Assembly (NCBI RefSeq): GCF_947493595.1
Contig: NZ_CANLRL010000007.1
Coordinates: forward strand, 168,473-232,472
Length of the DNA: 64,000 nucleotides
Direction of reading: 5' to 3'
From: an uncultured Shimia sp.
GTDB taxonomy: Bacteria; Pseudomonadota; Alphaproteobacteria; Rhodobacterales; Rhodobacteraceae
How positions within the stretch are numbered: the first letter of the stretch is position 1; every line of letters begins with the position of its first letter. Below are positions 5,346-42,312 of this stretch, piece after piece. Both the position numbers and the translations under genes were made by a program. Below the pieces are notes generated by a model. That model was not told the origin of the DNA. It saw only the letters and a list, made by a program, of their open reading frames with translations, and did not search any database.

Positions 5346-6560
5346 TCAGACGCCGATGTATTTTTCACGGCGGACCACCGTAATGATGGAGGCCACGCCC
5401 AGTGCCGAGGTTGCCAGCATCAGCCACAGCAGGGGGAAGGCGCCGGTTTCGGGTGTGAGCAAAGCGCCCGCAAGAGCGGACAGGGCAGCGCCGCCGCCAA
5501 TCATAATGGCGCCTGCGAGGCCGGAGGCGGTGCCCGCGAGGTGGGGGCGAACCGACAGGGCGCCTGCTGTGGCGTTGGGGATGGCGAGGCCGTTGCCGAT
5601 GCCAACAAAGGTCATAAAGCCAAAAAAGATTTCAGCGGAGCCAAAGCCTGCGGCAAAGATCGACAGGGAGGCCGCGACACCGAGCCCGCAAATCAGACAG
5701 CCCATGGTGACCATGCGGTTGATGCCGACGCGGGCAGAGTAGCGGCCGGAGAGGAAATTACCGATGAAGTAGCCAACAGCAGGGGCGCCGAAGTAGATGC
5801 CCATTTGCGCCGCGCTCATGCCGAAGAGTTCGGTGGCCACAAAAGGCGCGCCGCCGAGATAGGCAAAGAAGGCACCGGAGGTGAAGCAATTGGCCAGGGA
5901 ATAGCCCCAAAAGCGGGGGCTGGTCAGAAGCTCGGGGTATTCGCGGAATTGTTGACCAAGTGTCAGACCGCTACTGGATTTGGTTTCACCCAGATCGCGG
6001 TAGGTCAGCCAGAAGATGGCAACGCCAGTGGCAAACAGCAGCCAAAAGCTGGCCTGCCAACCAAAGGCGCTGTCCAATAGGCCGCCAAGGGCAGGGCCAA
6101 GCATCGGCACCACGGTCATGCCCATGGTGACGTAGCCAATCATCGAAGCGGCCTCATCTGCCGACACCATGTCGCGCACCACGGCGCGGGACAGGACCAT
6201 GGCCACAACCACGGCGGCTTGCAGCATGCGGAAGGTCAGAAAGATCGCAGCGTTGGGCGCGTAGATGCAGCCAATGGTGGCGGCAAGGAAGATTGCGAGG
6301 CCTGCGAGGATCACCGGACGGCGGCCCAGTTTGTCGCTGATTGGGCCAACGACAATTTGCAGCACCGCGTTGACGCCCAGGTAGACCGCAATGGAGAGTT
6401 GCATCACGCCATAGTCGGTGTCGAAGTACTCCGTCATCGAGGGCAGGCTGGGCAAGAAGATGTTCATGCACAACGCAGAAACCCCGGCCAGCAGGATCAA
6501 CGTGAAGATGTTTGGCGGTGTGGTTCGGTCTAGAAATTGACCACGGGCTAAGCTGCTCAT
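5346..6560 (-). CDS. MFS multidrug effflux transporter, Bcr/CflA type
   Basis: 12-TM profile, FLPSLPSMTEYFDTDYGVMQLSIAVYLGVNAVLQIVVGPISDKLGRRPVILAG. Confidence 0.85.
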   Translation of the reverse strand: MSSLARGQFLDRTTPPNIFTLILLAGVSALCMNIFLPSLPSMTEYFDTDYGVMQLSIAVYLGVNAVLQIVVGPISDKLGRRPVILAGLAIFLAATIGCIYAPNAAIFLTFRMLQAAVVVAMVLSRAVVRDMVSADEAASMIGYVTMGMTVVPMLGPALGGLLDSAFGWQASFWLLFATGVAIFWLTYRDLGETKSSSGLTLGQQFREYPELLTSPRFWGYSLANCFTSGAFFAYLGGAPFVATELFGMSAAQMGIYFGAPAVGYFIGNFLSGRYSARVGINRMVTMGCLICGLGVAASLSIFAAGFGSAEIFFGFMTFVGIGNGLAIPNATAGALSVRPHLAGTASGLAGAIMIGGGAALSALAGALLTPETGAFPLLWLMLATSALGVASIITVVRREKYIGV

Positions 6561-28333: not shown

Positions 28334-29572
<1,239 letters not shown>

Positions 29573-29574
29573 TC

Positions 29575-30588
29575 ATGGCACAGATGACAATGATTGAAGC
29601 CATCCGCGAGGCCCATGATGTGGCTATGGCGGCGGATGACAAAGTGGTGGTGTTTGGCGAGGACGTTGGGTTCTTTGGCGGTGTGTTCCGCTGTACTGCG
29701 GGGTTGCAGGAGAAATACGGCAAGTCCCGGTGTTTTGACGCGCCGATAAACGAGAGCGGTATTGTCGGCACGGCGATTGGCATGGCGGCTTATGGTCTGA
29801 AGCCGGTGATTGAGATCCAGTTCGCGGACTATGTGTATCCGGCGTATGACCAGATCGTGTCGGAGGCGGCGCGTCTGCGACACCGCTCCAACGGCGATTT
29901 CACCTGTCCCTTGGTGATCCGCATGCCCACTGGTGGCGGTATCTTTGGCGGGCAGACTCATAGCCAGAGCCCGGAGGCGATTTTCACCCATGTGTCCGGG
30001 TTGAAGGTGGTGATCCCGTCCAACCCGCGCGATGCGAAGGGGCTGTTGCTGGCGGCGATTGAAGACCCCGATCCGGTGATCTTCCTGGAGCCGAAGCGGT
30101 TGTACAACGGGCCGTTTGATGGGCATCACGACAAGCCCATTGAAAGCTGGAAGAAGCACCCTCAGGGCGACGTGCCTGAAGGCAATGAGATCATTCCGCT
30201 GGGCAAGGCGCATATTCAGCGTGAAGGCGCGGATGTAACGGTTTTGGCCTATGGCACAATGGTTTACGTGGCCGAGGCGGCTGCAGAAGAGACCGGTGTC
30301 GATGCGGAGGTGATCGACCTGCGAACGCTGATGCCGCTGGATCTGGAGACCATAGTTGAAAGCGTGAAGAAAACCGGGCGCTGTGTGATTGTGCATGAGG
30401 CGACCCGCACCTCAGGCTTTGGGGCGGAGCTGATGAGCCTCGTACAAGAAGCCTGTTTTTATCATCTTGAAGCGCCAATGATCCGGGTGACCGGATGGGA
30501 CACGCCGTATCCGCATGCGCAGGAGTGGGAGTATTTCCCGGGACCTGCACGGGTTGGCGAAGCGCTGCGCAAAGTCATGGAGGACTGA
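29575..30588 (+). CDS. bkdA2: branched-chain 2-oxoacid dehydrogenase E1 beta subunit
   Basis: VVFGEDVGFFGGVFRCTAGLQEKYG, PVIEIQFADYVYPAYDQIVSEAARLRHRSNG. Confidence 0.9.
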   Translation: MAQMTMIEAIREAHDVAMAADDKVVVFGEDVGFFGGVFRCTAGLQEKYGKSRCFDAPINESGIVGTAIGMAAYGLKPVIEIQFADYVYPAYDQIVSEAARLRHRSNGDFTCPLVIRMPTGGGIFGGQTHSQSPEAIFTHVSGLKVVIPSNPRDAKGLLLAAIEDPDPVIFLEPKRLYNGPFDGHHDKPIESWKKHPQGDVPEGNEIIPLGKAHIQREGADVTVLAYGTMVYVAEAAAEETGVDAEVIDLRTLMPLDLETIVESVKKTGRCVIVHEATRTSGFGAELMSLVQEACFYHLEAPMIRVTGWDTPYPHAQEWEYFPGPARVGEALRKVMED

Positions 30589-30592
30589 TCCC

Positions 30593-31861
30593 ATGGGAGT
30601 ATTTGCAATCCGTTTGCCCGACGTTGGAGAGGGCATTGCCGAGGCCGAGCTGGTCGAATGGCATGTGAAGGTAGGCGACGTGGTGCGCGAAGATGACGTG
30701 CTGGCCGCCGTGATGACCGACAAAGCTGCTGTGGAAGTGCCGTCGTCGGTTGATGGTAAGGTGCTCGCGCTGGGCGGTGAGATTGGCGACATGATCGCCA
30801 TCGGCGCCGTGTTGATCCGCATCGAAGTGGACGGCGAGGGTAACGAGAGCGGTGACGTGGAAGCGCCTGCGGCGGCACCGGCTGAGGAAAAGCCTGCGGT
30901 TGTGGAGGCGGTGGCTGAGCCAGCGCCAAAACCAGCGGCGAAGCCTGCGGTTGCTCCTGTTGCCGCAGCGCCAGTAAAGCGGGCGGCGGGCACCAAACCT
31001 TTGGCCTCGCCATCTGTCCGCGCGCGGGCGCGGGAAGAGGGTGTGGACCTGCGGCAGGTGCCAGGGTCCGGTGCAGCGGGGCGGATCAGCCATGCTGATT
31101 TGGACAACTGGATTGCCTCTGGTGGCATTCAGCAAGGTACTGTGGTGCGGGGGCAGAACACCGGTGTGGAAGAGGTGCGCGTGATTGGCATGCGCCGCAA
31201 GATCGCGGAAAAGATGGCGATCTCCAAACGGCAAATTCCGCATATCACCATTGTGGAAGAGGTGGAGATGTCGGCGCTGGAAGACCTGCGCGCGGCGCTT
31301 AACACCAAACACAAAGGGGAACGCGCGAAGCTGACGCTTTTGCCGTTCCTGATGCGGGCGATTGTCGAAGCGGTGCGGGAGCAGCCTGAGTTGAACGCGC
31401 GTTACGATGACGAAGCGGGCGTGATCCACCGTCATGGGGGCGTGCATGTGGGCATTGCGACGCAGACGCCAAACGGCCTGAACGTGCCGGTGGTGAAACA
31501 TGCCGAGGCGGGCAGTCTGTGGGACAATGCAGAAACCGTGTCGCGATTGGCGCAAGAAGCACGGGACGGCACCATCAAACGCGATGAGCTGTCCGGGGGC
31601 ACGATCACCATCACCTCGTTGGGGCCGCTGGGCGCGATTGCCACAACGCCGATCATCAACCACCCGGAGGTGGCCATCGTCGGTGTGAACAAGATGCAGA
31701 TCCGTCCGGTTTGGGATGGGCAGCAGTTTCAGCCGCGCAAGATGATGAACATCTCCTGCAGCTTTGATCACCGGGTGATCGACGGCTGGGATGCGGCTGT
31801 GTTTGTGCAAAAACTGAAAACCCTGCTGGAAACACCAGCCATGCTGTTTGTTGAGGGCTAA
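30593..31861 (+). CDS. bkdB: branched-chain 2-oxoacid dehydrogenase E2 (lipoamide acyltransferase)
   Basis: lipoyl domain VMTDKAAVEVPSSVDG, E3-binding domain, C-terminal SCSFDHRVIDGWDAAVF. Confidence 0.9.
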   Translation: MGVFAIRLPDVGEGIAEAELVEWHVKVGDVVREDDVLAAVMTDKAAVEVPSSVDGKVLALGGEIGDMIAIGAVLIRIEVDGEGNESGDVEAPAAAPAEEKPAVVEAVAEPAPKPAAKPAVAPVAAAPVKRAAGTKPLASPSVRARAREEGVDLRQVPGSGAAGRISHADLDNWIASGGIQQGTVVRGQNTGVEEVRVIGMRRKIAEKMAISKRQIPHITIVEEVEMSALEDLRAALNTKHKGERAKLTLLPFLMRAIVEAVREQPELNARYDDEAGVIHRHGGVHVGIATQTPNGLNVPVVKHAEAGSLWDNAETVSRLAQEARDGTIKRDELSGGTITITSLGPLGAIATTPIINHPEVAIVGVNKMQIRPVWDGQQFQPRKMMNISCSFDHRVIDGWDAAVFVQKLKTLLETPAMLFVEG

Positions 31862-33220
31862 ATGACTGATCTATCCTGTAAACTTCTGATCATTGGGGCT
31901 GGTCCTGGCGGCTATGTCTGTGCCATTCGCGCCGGGCAGCTGGGCATTGACACCATTGTTGTGGATGCTGGGAAGCCGGGGGGGACGTGCCTGAATGTGG
32001 GCTGTATCCCGTCCAAAGCGATGATCCACGCGGCGGATGAATTCCACAAGATTGCGCATGTAAACGACGGCCCCCTGGGGATCTCCGCCAGCGCGCCAAG
32101 CATCGATTTGGCCCAAACGGTGGCGTGGAAAGATGGCATTGTGCAGCGTCTGAACACGGGTGTTTCGGCCTTGATGAAGAAAGCCAAAGCGCGGTTTGTG
32201 AACGGACAAGCGCGGTTTTTGGATGGCAAAACCGTGGAAGTCACCAATGGGGACGAGGTGCAGCAAATCCGTGCGGAATATGTGGTGATTGCCACGGGTT
32301 CCGCGCCGGTGGAACTGCCGTTTTTACCGTTTGGCGGGCCAATCTTGTCCTCGACCGAGGCGCTGGACCTGACCGAGGTGCCGGAGACATTGGCGGTTGT
32401 TGGTGGTGGCTATATCGGGCTGGAGCTGGGCACGGTGTTTGCCAAACTGGGCAGCAAGGTCACGGTGGTGGAGGCGGAAGACCGCATTCTGTCGCTCTAT
32501 GACAAAGCGCTGACCAAACCGGTGGCGAAGCGGCTGGAAGACCTCGGCGTGACAGTGATGACCGGCTCCAAGGCACAGGGCTACAGTGACGGCGCCTTGC
32601 AGACAGACCAATGCGATGTGGTCGCAGAGAAGGTGTTGGTCACTGTCGGGCGGCGTCCGCGCACGGCGGGAATTGGCATTGAAGAGTTGGCGCTGACCCA
32701 AGACGGGCCGTTTGTGAAGATAGACAGCTTTTGCCAGACCTCCATGCGGGGGATCTACGCGATTGGCGACGTGACCGGCGAGCCGATGTTGGCGCACCGG
32801 GCGATGGCGCAGGGCGAAATGGTGGCCGAACACATCGCGGGTCACTCTGTGGAGTGGGACAAACGTGCCATTCCGGCGGTGTGTTTCACCGACCCGGAAG
32901 TGGTGACGTGCGGCGCGCTTCCCGGTGAGATTGACGGCACCAAGGCCAGCGAGTTTCCGTTTATGGCCAATGGTCGCGCCATGACCACGGAGCGCGACGA
33001 CGGCTTTGTGCGGGTTGTGTACCGCGAAGAGGACCACGCAGTTGTGGGCCTGCAGGCGGTGGGCGCCGGGATTTCGGAACTGTCGGCGGCGTTTTCATTG
33101 GCAATAGAGATGGGGGCTTGCCTTGAAGACATTGCAGCCACGATCCATGCCCATCCCACGCAATCTGAAGGATTGCAGGAAGCCTGTCTCAAGGCATTGG
33201 GGCACGCGCTGCATATCTAA
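31862..33220 (+). CDS. lpdV: dihydrolipoyl dehydrogenase (E3)
   Basis: IIGAGPGGYVCAIRAGQLG, GGTCLNVGCIPSKAMIHA, C-terminal IHAHPTQSEGLQEA. Confidence 0.9.
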   Translation: MTDLSCKLLIIGAGPGGYVCAIRAGQLGIDTIVVDAGKPGGTCLNVGCIPSKAMIHAADEFHKIAHVNDGPLGISASAPSIDLAQTVAWKDGIVQRLNTGVSALMKKAKARFVNGQARFLDGKTVEVTNGDEVQQIRAEYVVIATGSAPVELPFLPFGGPILSSTEALDLTEVPETLAVVGGGYIGLELGTVFAKLGSKVTVVEAEDRILSLYDKALTKPVAKRLEDLGVTVMTGSKAQGYSDGALQTDQCDVVAEKVLVTVGRRPRTAGIGIEELALTQDGPFVKIDSFCQTSMRGIYAIGDVTGEPMLAHRAMAQGEMVAEHIAGHSVEWDKRAIPAVCFTDPEVVTCGALPGEIDGTKASEFPFMANGRAMTTERDDGFVRVVYREEDHAVVGLQAVGAGISELSAAFSLAIEMGACLEDIAATIHAHPTQSEGLQEACLKALGHALHI

Positions 33221-33283: not shown

Positions 33284-33847
33284 TTAAAACAGTTGCACGT
33301 CGCCCAGGTTGTCGTCGACCTTTGGCTTCGGTGCGCGCTTTGGTGCTTCGTCCTCGGTGAGCAGACGGGTGTCTTTCATAAAGCGGCGCTGAATGCGGCC
33401 ACCCACGGGCCAGAAACGGATGTTGCGGCCCCGCTGGCCACCCAAACAGCAATCCATCAGCTCAAAACCTTCGTTGCGCACAAACCACATGGCAAATTCA
33501 GCGTTTTTGGAGCCGATGTCGATGCGGCTGTTGAACATCTTGCCGCCGCCTAACAGCTTCACCTTGAGATTGTCGCGGCGGGCGCCAGCCTGGATCAAAC
33601 CGTTCACCAGAAGTTCCATTGCGTGCACACCATGGCTCATGGAGCCAGCAGAGCCGTCTTCTGTGCCCGGCAAAAGGAAATGGTTCATGCCCCCGATCCC
33701 GGCGGTTTCATCCCACATGCAAGCCGCCACACATGACCCCAGGATCGTGGTCATCACGATATCTTGGTCACTGGAAACCTGCACATCACCCTGCAACAGG
33801 GGCTGGACCTGGTATCCTTTGATGGCTTCTGCTTCACTAAGACTCAT
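33284..33847 (-). CDS. cheD: chemoreceptor glutamine deamidase
   Basis: TTILGSCVAACMWDETAGIGGMNHFLLPG; KLLGGGKMF; che operon context. Confidence 0.9.
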   Translation of the reverse strand: MSLSEAEAIKGYQVQPLLQGDVQVSSDQDIVMTTILGSCVAACMWDETAGIGGMNHFLLPGTEDGSAGSMSHGVHAMELLVNGLIQAGARRDNLKVKLLGGGKMFNSRIDIGSKNAEFAMWFVRNEGFELMDCCLGGQRGRNIRFWPVGGRIQRRFMKDTRLLTEDEAPKRAPKPKVDDNLGDVQLF

Positions 33848-33925: not shown

Positions 33926-35962
33926 TTAGAAGTCTTCCCAGTCTTCGCTGGCGGTGTCTTGAACCGGTGCCGTTTGGTTTACGGCGGCTTTGGTTGGCTT
34001 GGGCATCGGTTTTGCTGCTTGAACGGCCTTGGGGCTGGGCTTGGCGGTCGAAGTCTTCTTGACCTTGGCTTTGCTCAGCTTGGCATCTTTGGCCGCGTCA
34101 TCGTCCCATTCTTTGGTTTTGGCAACGTCTGCAACTGGCTTGGCCGGGGCAGGCTTCGCAGCTTTTGGCGCCGGTTTGGCCGCCGCTGCCGCTTTTTTCG
34201 GAGCCGGTTTTGGTGCCGCAGGGGCCGAGGCCGCGACGACGTCTGCTTCGGTTAGCTTAAAGACTTTAAGGGCTTGAGACATATTGGCAGCCTCATCCGA
34301 CAAGCTGCGGCTGGCGGCTGAGGATTCTTCGATCATGGCTGCGTTGCGCTGAGTCACCCGGTCCAGTTCGGTCACACTCTCTTTGATCTCGCGCAGGTTG
34401 TCCGCTTGGTCGCGGGACCCTGTGGCAATTTGCGAGACCAGATCGGAGGCGTGGTTCACACCGGTTATGATTTCCTGAAGCGCGTCGCCGGCCTTGTTGA
34501 CCAACTCGCTGCCCTTGGTGACCTGTTCACCGGATGTCAGGATCAGCTCTTTGATTTCGTTGGCGGATTCAGAGGCGCGTTGCGCCAGAGCGCGGACCTC
34601 GGAGGCGACAACCGCAAACCCGCGACCTGCTTCGCCGGCACGGGCGGCTTCGACACCGGCGTTAAGAGCCAGCAGGTTGGTTTGGAAGGCGATGTCATCA
34701 ATCACACCGATGATGGCAGTGATCTTGTCAGAGCTCTGTTCGATGTTGCGCATCGCCTCAACGGTGAGTTCAACCACCTCGCCACCGGACTGCGCCTGTT
34801 GACGGTTCTGGGTGATACGCTTGTTGGCTTCCGCAGCATGATCTGCTGTTTGTTCGACCGATGTGCTCAGGGTTTCGATGGCCGCCGCAGATTCCTCAAG
34901 CGTCACAGCCTGCGCCTCAGAACGCTTGGATTGATCCACAACGCTTTCGGAAATTTCCTGGGCACTGGAACGCACGGTTTCGGCTGTGCGGGTCACGGTG
35001 GAGAGCACTGATTTCAGATTGGTGAGGACCTCGTTGAAGTCTTTGCAGATCCGCTGGGAGTTTTCGCCCAGATGGGAGAACTCGGTCACATCGATAGGAC
35101 GATCCACACGGCCATCGGCAATTTCAGACAGACCTTCCGCAAGACGGGCAAACAGACGCTGGCGTTGTTTATCCTGCGCGGCACGCATTTCGCGGTCACG
35201 TTCTTCCTGGGCGAGTTGCGTGCGGAATTTCTCCAGACGCTTGGCCATGGCGCCAATTTCGTCGTCGCGATCCAGGCACGGCACGTCATAAGTAAAGTCG
35301 TGATCCGCAATAGCATCCATTGCTTTGCCAAGGCTCAGCACCGGACGTGTCACCACGCGGCCGACCAGCATCACAATCAGGCCGAGTGCCAAGGCGGCTG
35401 CCAGGGAGGAGCCAATCGCGCCTTTGACAAATTCCTGAAGGGCTTCTTGGCGAATGGAGGACACATCGGCGGCAACCTGCAACGAACCAACCGGTGCACG
35501 GCCAGCCTGCGCGATGGGCATATGCGCGGCATAGACCGCCCCTTCGATGGCATGTGCGCTTGGTTTGGCGTCGGTGACAGACGCTGAGACACCACTCAAT
35601 GCTTGGTTGACACTGTCTGCGCGGGTCTCAGCGGCATCATAGGTGTAGATCTCTGTGCCGTCTGAGGCCAGAACGCTGACGGCAGTGATATGCGCATCTT
35701 GCTCCAAGAAACGGTCGGTTGTCGCTTTCAGGCGGTCCACATCCTGAAACTGAGCGGCGGCGACCAATTGCGTGCTAAACAGCTCTGTGAGCAGATCGTA
35801 GCGCTCCATCGCTTGCGCTTCGGCTTCGGCGGTGCGGGCGTTGTACTGGGAAAATTGTGACAGGCCGACAGCCAGGAGGGCGCAGGCTGCAATGGCAACT
35901 GCCAATTTGGTTTTGATGCTCATCCGCGAGAAGCGGGCTTTCATTTTTTGGAAAACTGGCAT
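33926..35962 (-). CDS. methyl-accepting chemotaxis protein with Ala/Pro/Lys-rich tail ending DWEDF
   Basis: hairpin tip [54 protein letters not shown] region; long low-complexity C-terminus. Confidence 0.9.
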
Positions 35963-36027: not shown

Positions 36028-37239
36028 TTAAAGGGAGCTGCCTTTTTGAGTGACTTGCGACGCCTTGGCGGAAAGATCGGCCAGGTGGCGGTCGGTGTTG
36101 TCATGGAAGTTTTCCAGACGGGCGATGATGCCGTCCAAACCACTGTCCACGTCACGCATACGGCCGCTTTCGACTTTGCAAAGCAGTTTCACAACGTCGA
36201 GACCGTTGATCCGACGGCGCAGGCTGCGGCAGATGTCCGGGATGGATTTGCCGATGGAGGAAATTTCGATCAGGCGGGAGCGGCTGCGCTGATGTAGGCG
36301 TTCGTGGTGCTCTTTCAAAAGCAGAGCGCCGTCGGTTTCCTTGTCGTCCGGTTGCACGTGATCGTAGGCTTCGTTGAGAAGCTGCGCAATCTGCATGGAC
36401 CAGCGGCCCTGAGACACGGCGCTGTACATTTGCACCAGCGAGCCGTTTTCCGGATCGTGCAAACGGCCAACAAGACCGTGCATTTCTTTGGCCATCGCAT
36501 CATAGTTTTGCGAGATGGTACCAAGAGCGGCCCCGGCACCTTCCAGACGGCCAGCCAAAATGCGCAGGTTCACGGGCTCGCCACGGACACGCTCAAAACC
36601 TTGTTCGATGCTGTTAACCAGCCCCTGCATGTCGGAAATGATTTCTGCCAGCTCGTCCATCAGTTGGAAAGAGTTGACCAAATTCGGCGCGACAATATTG
36701 CGGCCTTTGAACTCGAGATTCAGAGCCTCGATGCCGTAAGCTTCCAGTGTTGGGTAGCCGGCCTCTTTGATCATCTCAAGCAACCGCGCTCCGCTTTGTT
36801 CCGGCGTCAGGTTCTTGTCTTTCTCTTCCTGGAGAAGTGAGACGTACATTTCTTTCGTGGTTTCAAACAGCTCTGTGCCGGGGCGAATACGGGCGGACAA
36901 AAATCCGTTTTCGGTTTGGGTGACCACAGCCAAAACCCAGTAATAACCACCGGATTTGGTTTTGTTTTTCACATAGGTACAGACCGGCTGACCCGCTTTC
37001 AGGCACTCCCACAACAGGTAGAAAACACCTTTGGGCATGTCTGGATGGCGCATGATTTTATGCGGCGCGTTGATGAGCTCTTCCAGCGGGTAGCCACCCA
37101 CTTCGATGAATTTTTCGTTGGCGAACTGGATCACGCCACGCGGATCGGTCGCCGACGTGATGATACTCTCGTTGGCAAACCGCACCTCAGTTGCGGAGCT
37201 GTCTGCGCTGGCGCTGCTGATCTTTGTCATGGCGTTCAT
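36028..37239 (-). CDS. soluble PAS-domain chemotaxis protein (Aer-like PAS, no canonical MCP hairpin)
   Basis: TSATDPRGVIQFANEKFIEVGGYPLEELINAPHKIMRHPDMPKGVFYLLWECLKAGQPVCTYVKNKTKSGGYYWVLA. Confidence 0.8.
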   Translation of the reverse strand: MNAMTKISSASADSSATEVRFANESIITSATDPRGVIQFANEKFIEVGGYPLEELINAPHKIMRHPDMPKGVFYLLWECLKAGQPVCTYVKNKTKSGGYYWVLAVVTQTENGFLSARIRPGTELFETTKEMYVSLLQEEKDKNLTPEQSGARLLEMIKEAGYPTLEAYGIEALNLEFKGRNIVAPNLVNSFQLMDELAEIISDMQGLVNSIEQGFERVRGEPVNLRILAGRLEGAGAALGTISQNYDAMAKEMHGLVGRLHDPENGSLVQMYSAVSQGRWSMQIAQLLNEAYDHVQPDDKETDGALLLKEHHERLHQRSRSRLIEISSIGKSIPDICRSLRRRINGLDVVKLLCKVESGRMRDVDSGLDGIIARLENFHDNTDRHLADLSAKASQVTQKGSSL

Positions 37240-37278: not shown

Positions 37279-37623
37279 TCAGAAGAGGTTTACGTTGCCT
37301 GCATCAGGCGAGATTGCGCGGGCTTTTTCCGCATCGGAGAGGCGAGATTTCAGGTAATCCAGACGGACGCTGTTTGAGAGATCCTGCACATTGAGATCCG
37401 GACCAGCGCCAATCATGGAAGACATGTTGCCAAGCAATGCCGCGATGTCATCCAGGTGCTGAAACAGCGCGTCTACGCGCTGTAGATCCCTTATTTTATT
37501 GTGATCGACGCCTTCCAGATCCAACTCACTGGTCAACCCGTCCAGCGCATGTGCGATGGAGGCAAGGTCAGCCACGTCCTCGGAAATGGTGGTTAGTACG
37601 TCTGCGGTTGAGCGCGTTGTCAT
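37279..37623 (-). CDS. small helical che-operon protein with DxxxQ motif (candidate CheT/CheZ-like phosphatase)
   Basis: RDLQRVDALFQHLDDIAALLGNM contains D-A-L-F-Q; C-terminus SPDAGNVNLF; sits between cheY and the PAS gene. Confidence 0.6.
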   Translation of the reverse strand: MTTRSTADVLTTISEDVADLASIAHALDGLTSELDLEGVDHNKIRDLQRVDALFQHLDDIAALLGNMSSMIGAGPDLNVQDLSNSVRLDYLKSRLSDAEKARAISPDAGNVNLF

Positions 37624-37648: not shown

Positions 37649-38035
37649 TTAAAGAGGCCCCACCACCTTCTCGATGCAGGCTTTCAGCTGTGCGGTTTCG
37701 AACGGCTTCTTAATGAAGTTGTTCATGCCCAGCTTGACGCCTTTGTTGATTGTGTCCGGATCTGCACGTCCCGTGATCAGGATAAAGCCGGTGCGTGCCG
37801 TCGCTTTATTGCCGCGGATGCCTTCCAGAAGCTGGAGACCGTCCATGCCTGGCATGTTGAAGTCGGACAGGATCAGGTGCACCGGTTTCGCAGCCAGGCT
37901 ACGCCAGGCTTGTGCGCCGTCGTTTTCGGTGCGGTAATTGACGATCCCGATCTCATCGAGCGCCTGTGTGATGAGTCCTCGGCTGGTGGACATGTCGTCC
38001 ACAACCAGAATGTGCAGCTTATCTTTCAAGCTCAT
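37649..38035 (-). CDS. cheY: CheY-type response regulator
   Basis: LHILVVDDMSTSRGLITQALDEIG, LILSDFNMPGMDGLQLL, FIKKPF. Confidence 0.9.
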   Translation of the reverse strand: MSLKDKLHILVVDDMSTSRGLITQALDEIGIVNYRTENDGAQAWRSLAAKPVHLILSDFNMPGMDGLQLLEGIRGNKATARTGFILITGRADPDTINKGVKLGMNNFIKKPFETAQLKACIEKVVGPL

Positions 38036-38037
38036 TT

Positions 38038-38940
38038 TTAATTCCCCATGTGCAAGGTTGCATCAGCGCTTCTGCTGCCAATGCTGGAGGTGTCTATTGA
38101 GAAAACGCCCCGTCCGGCTGTGTGAAACAGGTCGGCGTGTTCCGGGCCAATTCCTTCGGAATGACCCAAGAATAGAAGACCGTCCGGGCAGAGCTGCTCG
38201 CCAAATCTGCGCCAGAGGCGGCTTTGTGTTGGCGCATCAAAGTAGATGGCGACGTTGCGACACATGATGATGTCGAACTGGCCCTTGAACGGCCAATCGC
38301 CATGAAGATTGAGGCGCCGGAAGCTAATCAGTTCGCGGGCTTTGTCGCAAACAGACTTCCGATCGTTAGACCCTTCAAAATCCTCAAAATACTTGGTCGC
38401 TTGCCCGTTGGGCAGGGTGTTGACCGAGGATGCGGGGTAGATGCCGCGCTTGGCGGATGCCAAGATTTCGGGGTCGATGTCTGATGCCAGGATTTTTACA
38501 TCCAGGGACGGGGCCTCCGGGCAGGCATCCAATACATGGAACGCCAGGCCATAAGGTTCTTCCCCGCTGGAACAGCCAGCAGACCAAATCCGAACCCGCT
38601 TGCCGCGACGTGCCTGGGCCATAAGGTCCGGCAGCACATCATTGGCCAACTGTTCGAAGTGATGCCCTTCGCGATTGAAGCGCGTCATGTTGGTTGTATA
38701 GGCGCTGATAAAGCGGGTTTGTTCATCCCGCCCTTGAGGCGAGTGCATATAGTCAATGTAGTCGTTGACTGTCTCATAGCCTGTGGCACGCAGGCGCTTG
38801 GAGAGGCGGGAGGCGACCATCGTCCGCTTGTGCGGCTGAAGATCGATTCCCATCCACTCACGCACCAGACCAGCAATGGCGGCAAAGTCCGCATCACTGA
38901 TTGTGCCTTCTTCAAGGGATTTTTGCGCCATCTGGGTCAT
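38038..38940 (-). CDS. cheR: chemotaxis protein methyltransferase
   Basis: RFNREGHHFEQLANDVLP, RIWSAGCSSGEEPYGLAF, FDIIMCRNVAIYFDAPTQSRL. Confidence 0.92.
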   Translation of the reverse strand: MTQMAQKSLEEGTISDADFAAIAGLVREWMGIDLQPHKRTMVASRLSKRLRATGYETVNDYIDYMHSPQGRDEQTRFISAYTTNMTRFNREGHHFEQLANDVLPDLMAQARRGKRVRIWSAGCSSGEEPYGLAFHVLDACPEAPSLDVKILASDIDPEILASAKRGIYPASSVNTLPNGQATKYFEDFEGSNDRKSVCDKARELISFRRLNLHGDWPFKGQFDIIMCRNVAIYFDAPTQSRLWRRFGEQLCPDGLLFLGHSEGIGPEHADLFHTAGRGVFSIDTSSIGSRSADATLHMGN

Positions 38941-39407
38941 GCTGCTGACAATGCTTCCTGTGGCATGATCTGGTGAACATCGATCGCACGCACGATGGTG
39001 TCATCCAGAGTGTAGACCCCGCGAATGAACGCAGCTGTCTTGGAGGAAGACACTTCCGGTGTGGCTTTGATCTCATCCGTGTTCACGGTGATGATGTTGG
39101 ACACTGCGTCCACCAGGAAACCAACGCTCTTCTCATCGATATGCGCGATGATGATGACGTGACGGCTTTCCGGGATGGTTTTGCCAAGGCCCAGGCGCAT
39201 CGACAGGTCGATCACCGGCAGCACAGCACCACGCAGGTTCATCATGCCAACCACATAATCCGGCGCGTGCGGCAGGGTGGTGGTGTTGGTCCAGCCGCGA
39301 ATTTCGAGCACGTGGCCGATGTCCAGGCAGAAGGCCTGCTCGCCAATGGCGAAGGACACGATTTCAATGCGTTCGTCGGTCTGTTCTTGAGTTGCTTGTT
39401 CAGACAT
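38937..39407 (-). CDS. cheW: chemotaxis coupling protein
   Basis: EIVSFAIGEQAFCLDIGHVLEIRGW, MMNLRGAVLPVIDLSMRLGL. Confidence 0.92.
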   Translation of the reverse strand: MSEQATQEQTDERIEIVSFAIGEQAFCLDIGHVLEIRGWTNTTTLPHAPDYVVGMMNLRGAVLPVIDLSMRLGLGKTIPESRHVIIIAHIDEKSVGFLVDAVSNIITVNTDEIKATPEVSSSKTAAFIRGVYTLDDTIVRAIDVHQIMPQEALSAA

Positions 39408-41647: not shown

Positions 41648-42013
41648 TCAGACAACCAGACGATTGATGACAGCGACCAGTTTTTCGGCGTCAAATGGTT
41701 TGACGATCCAGCCGGTCGCGCCAGCTGTGCGGGCACGTTGTTTCAGTTCTTCACCGCTTTCCGTGGTCAGCACGAGAATTGGCAGAGAGGCGCATTCAGG
41801 ACGCTCGCGGACACCTTCGATCATGCCAAAGCCATCCAGGCGCGGCATGTTGATGTCGGTGATGACCAGATCGGGGTCGGAGCCGCCAAGTTTGTCCAGA
41901 CCGTCGATGCCGTCCTCGGCCAGATCGACATCAAAGCCTGCATCGGTCAGTGCGGTTTGAATCATCGCGCGCATGGTGCGGGAGTCATCAACTGCAAGAA
42001 TCTTCGTCGTCAT
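41648..42013 (-). CDS. cheY: CheY-type response regulator
   Basis: KILAVDDSRTMRAMIQTALTDAGFDV, LVITDINMPRLDGFGMI, GWIVKPFDAEKLV. Confidence 0.92.
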   Translation of the reverse strand: MTTKILAVDDSRTMRAMIQTALTDAGFDVDLAEDGIDGLDKLGGSDPDLVITDINMPRLDGFGMIEGVRERPECASLPILVLTTESGEELKQRARTAGATGWIVKPFDAEKLVAVINRLVV

Positions 42014-42312
42014 GCGGAGCCCCTTTCAAGAAGACAGTCATGGGGCAGGCCGAGCCGCTCCATACCTTTAAGAAAATCGTCAGATGGTTGTTTCAGTTCA
42101 AATGCCAGGTTGCGTGCGGCCCATTCGGCGCGCGTGGCAAGAAGAAGTTCCGCGCCAGCCCCCCCAAGGAACTCAACATGGTGCGCATCAAGCGCAAGCG
42201 GTTGACCGCGGGAGGCCTCGATAGCGAGGCGCAACTCAGTGCAATGTGCGTAATCCAACTGCTGCGGCAGCGCGATGCAGTCGGCCTGTGATGATGTGTT
42301 TTGTGTGTTCAT
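42010..42312 (-). CDS. STAS-domain protein of che operon (positional counterpart of CheS/CheX-type STAS proteins)
   Basis: LALDAHHVEFLGGAGAELLLATRAEWAARN; ATGA overlap with cheY. Confidence 0.7.
   Translation of the reverse strand: MNTQNTSSQADCIALPQQLDYAHCTELRLAIEASRGQPLALDAHHVEFLGGAGAELLLATRAEWAARNLAFELKQPSDDFLKGMERLGLPHDCLLERGSA

Follow-up and report, generated by a model that had tools for sequence, protein, structure and literature searches.

In CheZ, Gln147 enters the active site of CheY and positions a water molecule. CheC, CheX and FliY have the same role, CheY-P hydrolysis, but their fold and their ExxN motif differ from what is found in CheT, a small protein of the Sinorhizobium meliloti che operon, of which CheY1 is reportedly the target. 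S. meliloti CheT (Agbekudzi et al. 2024, pmid 39081077) is described in a review (PMC12654446) as a DXXXQ protein that complexes with CheR and makes one of two CheY-P lose its phosphate faster; its AlphaFold model is reported there as CheZ-like. The review also describes CheS as a single STAS domain (PMC12654446).

We analyzed a che operon carried on a 64,000-nucleotide stretch of DNA from an uncultured Shimia sp. (contig NZ_CANLRL010000007.1), referred to as the window (Table 1). A preliminary description, made from the letters alone, had noted a 114-aa ORF, predicted to be mostly helical, between cheY and a PAS gene, with a DxxxQ motif and a C-terminal GNVNLF peptide, and had proposed it as a candidate CheT/CheZ-like CheY-P phosphatase. 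The ORF, named cheT hereafter, was found where it had been placed and on the minus strand, with D51 and Q55 of the motif (both contained in RVDALFQHLDDIAALL, residues 49-64) and the terminal peptide as announced. It opens with an ATG preceded by GGGGGA; 25 bp separate it from cheYb on its upstream side and 39 bp from the PAS gene that follows.

Table 1. Features of the che operon and of cheT, in window coordinates
Feature	Assignment	Position	Strand	Remarks
cheT	114-aa ORF, almost certainly a CheT ortholog	37279..37623	-	Predicted helices at residues 6-32 (helix 1) and 41-71 (helix 2); C-terminal tail disordered, residues 105-114
cheT codons 48-55	QRVDALFQ, with invariant Q48, D51 and Q55; proposed catalytic face	37459..37482	-	Coordinates derived from the ORF start, 37623; 94/94 homologs
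cheT codons 109-114	GNVNLF, conserved C-terminal peptide; form in common with CheD GDVQLF	37282..37299	-
cheYb	S. meliloti CheY2 ortholog (1p6q best match); possible substrate	37649..38035	-	Directly upstream neighbour of cheT in 86/94 loci of relatives
cheR		38038..38940	-
cheW		38937..39407	-
cheA	Sole CheA in the genome	39400..41634	-
cheYa	Response regulator occupying the CheY1 position, flanked by the STAS gene and cheA; may be a substrate	41648..42013	-
STAS-domain gene	Position of rhizobial cheS	42010..42312	-
PAS-domain gene	No MCP signalling domain	36028..37239	-
MCP gene	Pentapeptide-like C-terminal end EDWEDF	33926..35962	-
cheD	C-terminal end GDVQLF	33284..33847	-

A whole-genome search (genome completeness 99.99%) found no CheZ, CheC or CheX, and PF04509 (CheC) and PF13690 (CheX) had no match either in the cheT ORF or in the whole genome, which leaves CheT, among the families tested, as the sole protein recognisable as a candidate CheY-P phosphatase. 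The CheB methylesterase domain (PF01339) was found nowhere in the genome, with positive controls, whereas cheB is present in the S. meliloti locus; the chemotaxis system is thus one with CheR and without CheB. The PAS protein is soluble and has a helical C-terminal half, and several relatives retain its gene in this operon. Beside the che operon, at 28337-33220, are genes that on visual inspection resemble those of a 2-oxoacid dehydrogenase complex (E1 alpha, E1 beta, E2 and dihydrolipoamide dehydrogenase).

Searches of Pfam, NCBIfam and the PDB with the single cheT sequence returned nothing usable, and a plasmid tblastn gave no match. The neighbouring cheYb has a full-length best PDB match in S. 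meliloti CheY2. Using the CheY2 sequence (100% match), we found the S. meliloti locus, L043, where the gene order is cheB-cheY2-cheD-cheT and CheT is encoded at positions 5969-6343 of the locus, with the motif LQGIDLAVQK and the tail GDFEAF. An hhalign comparison of 28 family members with 80 rhizobial CheT sequences shows an end-to-end alignment in which motif is superposed on motif (probability 98%, E 7e-13, 114 columns), although S. meliloti CheT itself is no more than about 21% identical. Such a full-length match with superposed motifs, for a gene sitting in a che operon homologous to the rhizobial one and beside a CheY2 ortholog, makes it almost certain that the ORF is a CheT ortholog, in agreement with the CheT-like identity first suggested for it. 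The likeness to S. meliloti CheT comprises, in addition to the full-length homology, LQxxDxxxQ in a small helical protein, a conserved C-terminal tail with a final F, and a place together with cheR and cheY2 in a che operon. The two differ in the position of cheT, which directly follows cheY2 here and cheD in S. meliloti, and in the form of the tail, GxVxLF here and GDF[ED]xF in rhizobial CheT.

In one sequence the motif is worthless as evidence, since some DxxxQ occurs in 34% of shuffles of the cheT ORF (QxxDxxxQ in 0.6%); a second DxxxQ, D76-Q80, lies in the ORF itself, outside the conserved columns. The concern, voiced in the preliminary description, that DxxxQ could occur by chance is therefore justified for a single sequence but does not extend to the homologs, in which the D and Q whose conservation it had wished to see checked are invariant. 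Among 123 homologs with a mean column identity of 20%, no column is invariant except Q48, D51 and Q55, and each of these three is present in 94 of the 94 ORFs retrieved afterwards with the family profile, a set in which some selection remains because the genomes were picked with the unmasked profile. Most of these ORFs (82 of the 94) come from genomes outside the seed alignment, and invariance there is 82/82; moreover, a profile in which the three invariant columns had been masked recovered the same 94 ORFs. The rhizobial set was chosen on CheY2 alone and is hence free of motif selection: CheT was found in all 80 of the 80 CheY2-selected loci, always with QxxDxxxQ and a terminal F. On an ideal helix, Q48, D51 and Q55 fall within 60 degrees, which puts them on a single face of helix 2.

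A search with the single sequence detects cheT in 15 of 60 relatives and in 40 of 397 genomes of the family, and nearly all of its matches, including the weak ones, lie directly after a cheR-cheY2 pair. Using a profile built from an alignment of 30 family members, we found cheT in 117 of 298 Rhodobacteraceae genomes, representing 116 genera (about 40% of the sampled genera); no earlier report of CheT in Rhodobacteraceae was found in the literature searched. In two relatives (loci L204 and L219), whose gene order is cheA-cheW-cheY2-cheT, cheR is missing from its place between cheW and cheY2. In a 91-genome sample, CheT and CheD co-occur, as expected of two che genes (31 genomes with both, 5 with CheT only, 8 with CheD only and 47 with neither).

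CheT and CheD also resemble each other at the C-terminus, which follows Gx[VI]x[LWF]F in both, and among the stop-to-stop ORFs of at least 80 aa in the window they are the only ones to end in [VIF]x[LFW]F. Similar CheD ends occur in Rhodobacteraceae and in many other Pseudomonadota and are absent from short CheDs of another type. That the CheD tail would be specific to CheT-bearing systems was refuted, as CheT-negative members of the family and several other Pseudomonadota have it. It is reasonable to infer that the tails of CheT and CheD have a docking partner in common, for instance CheR, CheY or another protein.

These tails bear on the possibility that CheT is mainly an adaptor, its tail linking CheR (or CheD) to CheY or to the receptor array, with phosphatase activity as a minor function. 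The reported complex of S. meliloti CheT with CheR (PMC12654446) would fit such a role, as would the conservation of a CheT tail that matches that of CheD (103 of 123 rows have F at the last aligned position) and the presence of CheR without CheB, given that control of receptor modification must then come from elsewhere. However, the only three invariant residues are those of the putative catalytic QxxDxxxQ, whereas the tail is more variable and is missing in a minority of homologs, so that we regard a mainly adaptor role as unlikely.

The AlphaFold2 model of CheT, built with 123 sequences (pLDDT 82, pTM 0.73), supports a helical hairpin whose second helix carries the motif, consistent with the mostly helical protein initially predicted; it also places strands at residues 3-5 and 76-78, short helices, and a tail that is short as well as disordered. 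Foldseek against the PDB, run twice, gave no significant match (best E about 1), listing generic helical hairpins and no CheZ in the top 50, and thus did not reproduce the resemblance to the CheZ fold that has been reported for S. meliloti CheT; a profile search of the PDB yielded no CheZ, its matches being for the most part coiled coils and further helical proteins without relation to CheT. A few weak Foldseek matches were to the DHp domains of histidine kinases (CpxA, RetS/GacS, ERS1), which are likewise two-helix hairpins, but these are not significant (E >1), and CheT has neither a phospho-accepting His region nor an ATPase domain. HisKA_3 kinases also use DxxxQ in phosphatase activity.

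Could CheT nevertheless be a genuine CheZ that has diverged very far? In both proteins DxxxQ lies on a long hairpin helix and the last residue is phenylalanine, and the S. meliloti CheT model is reported as CheZ-like (PMC12654446). Against this, the cheT ORF has no match to Pfam CheZ (PF04344), and hhalign of the CheT set with 28-30 CheZs gave a probability <1% with the motifs unaligned. In the CheZ signature, FQD[LI][TS]GQ, a Q adjoins the D, whereas in LQxxDxxxQ of CheT it stands three positions before it. In addition, CheT has 114 aa compared with 214 in CheZ and is devoid of the linker and the C-terminal CheY-binding helix. Descent from CheZ therefore appears very improbable. The term “CheZ-like” remains apt for the proposed way of working, with DxxxQ in a helical protein ending in phenylalanine and the same chemistry proposed, but not for sequence homology or for the CheZ C-terminal helix. 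CheZ (PF04344) was found in none of 249 Rhodobacteraceae genomes, with a positive E. coli control, and none of the CheZ-bearing genomes sampled in the class, which are small in number, is among the CheT-positive ones. As to the reading in which a small helical protein unrelated to CheT carries DxxxQ by chance, the frequency of the motif among shuffles is outweighed by the invariance of D and Q in 94/94 and 123/123 homologs, by the robustness to masking and by the homology to CheT, and this reading can practically be dismissed.

Based on this comparative analysis, CheT is most likely a dedicated CheY-P phosphatase, and we consider its putative phosphatase activity probable. In the mechanism that we propose, which is modelled on CheZ, Q55 would be inserted beside the phospho-aspartate of CheY and orient a water molecule for attack, D51 would contact the active-site lysine, Q48 would assist, and the flexible tail would dock a partner. 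Orthology predicts that one of the two CheYs is the substrate of CheT, which may bind CheR here as well. Because the rhizobial effect is reported on one CheY only, a role toward the motor CheY is putative in this organism. An attempt to name the target CheY from co-occurrence failed, since nearly all of the wide loci examined contain both CheYs; the sink-type CheY1 position would make CheYa marginally the likelier substrate. Both CheYs have Asn at D+2, whereas at T+2 CheYa has Glu, as in E. coli CheY, and CheYb has Arg, a difference that may bear on phosphatase sensitivity. More speculatively, and with rather low confidence, CheT may represent a CheZ-independent phosphatase family that reached DxxxQ chemistry separately and has Q48 as a further invariant residue; with CheB missing from this genome, CheT and CheD would dock one partner, CheR or CheY-P, via their common peptide, which would couple signal termination to receptor modification without CheB feedback.

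Taken together, these results are best explained by a CheT ortholog that probably terminates the chemotaxis signal. In Rhodobacter sphaeroides, a phosphatase was stated to be known for CheY6 only, with none identified for the other regulators (PMC2924250). Known so far in rhizobia, Caulobacter and close relatives, CheT now has a range that takes in the large family Rhodobacteraceae, in whose CheZ-less members it is a strong candidate for the missing off switch, with three residues to mutate, making signal termination testable there.
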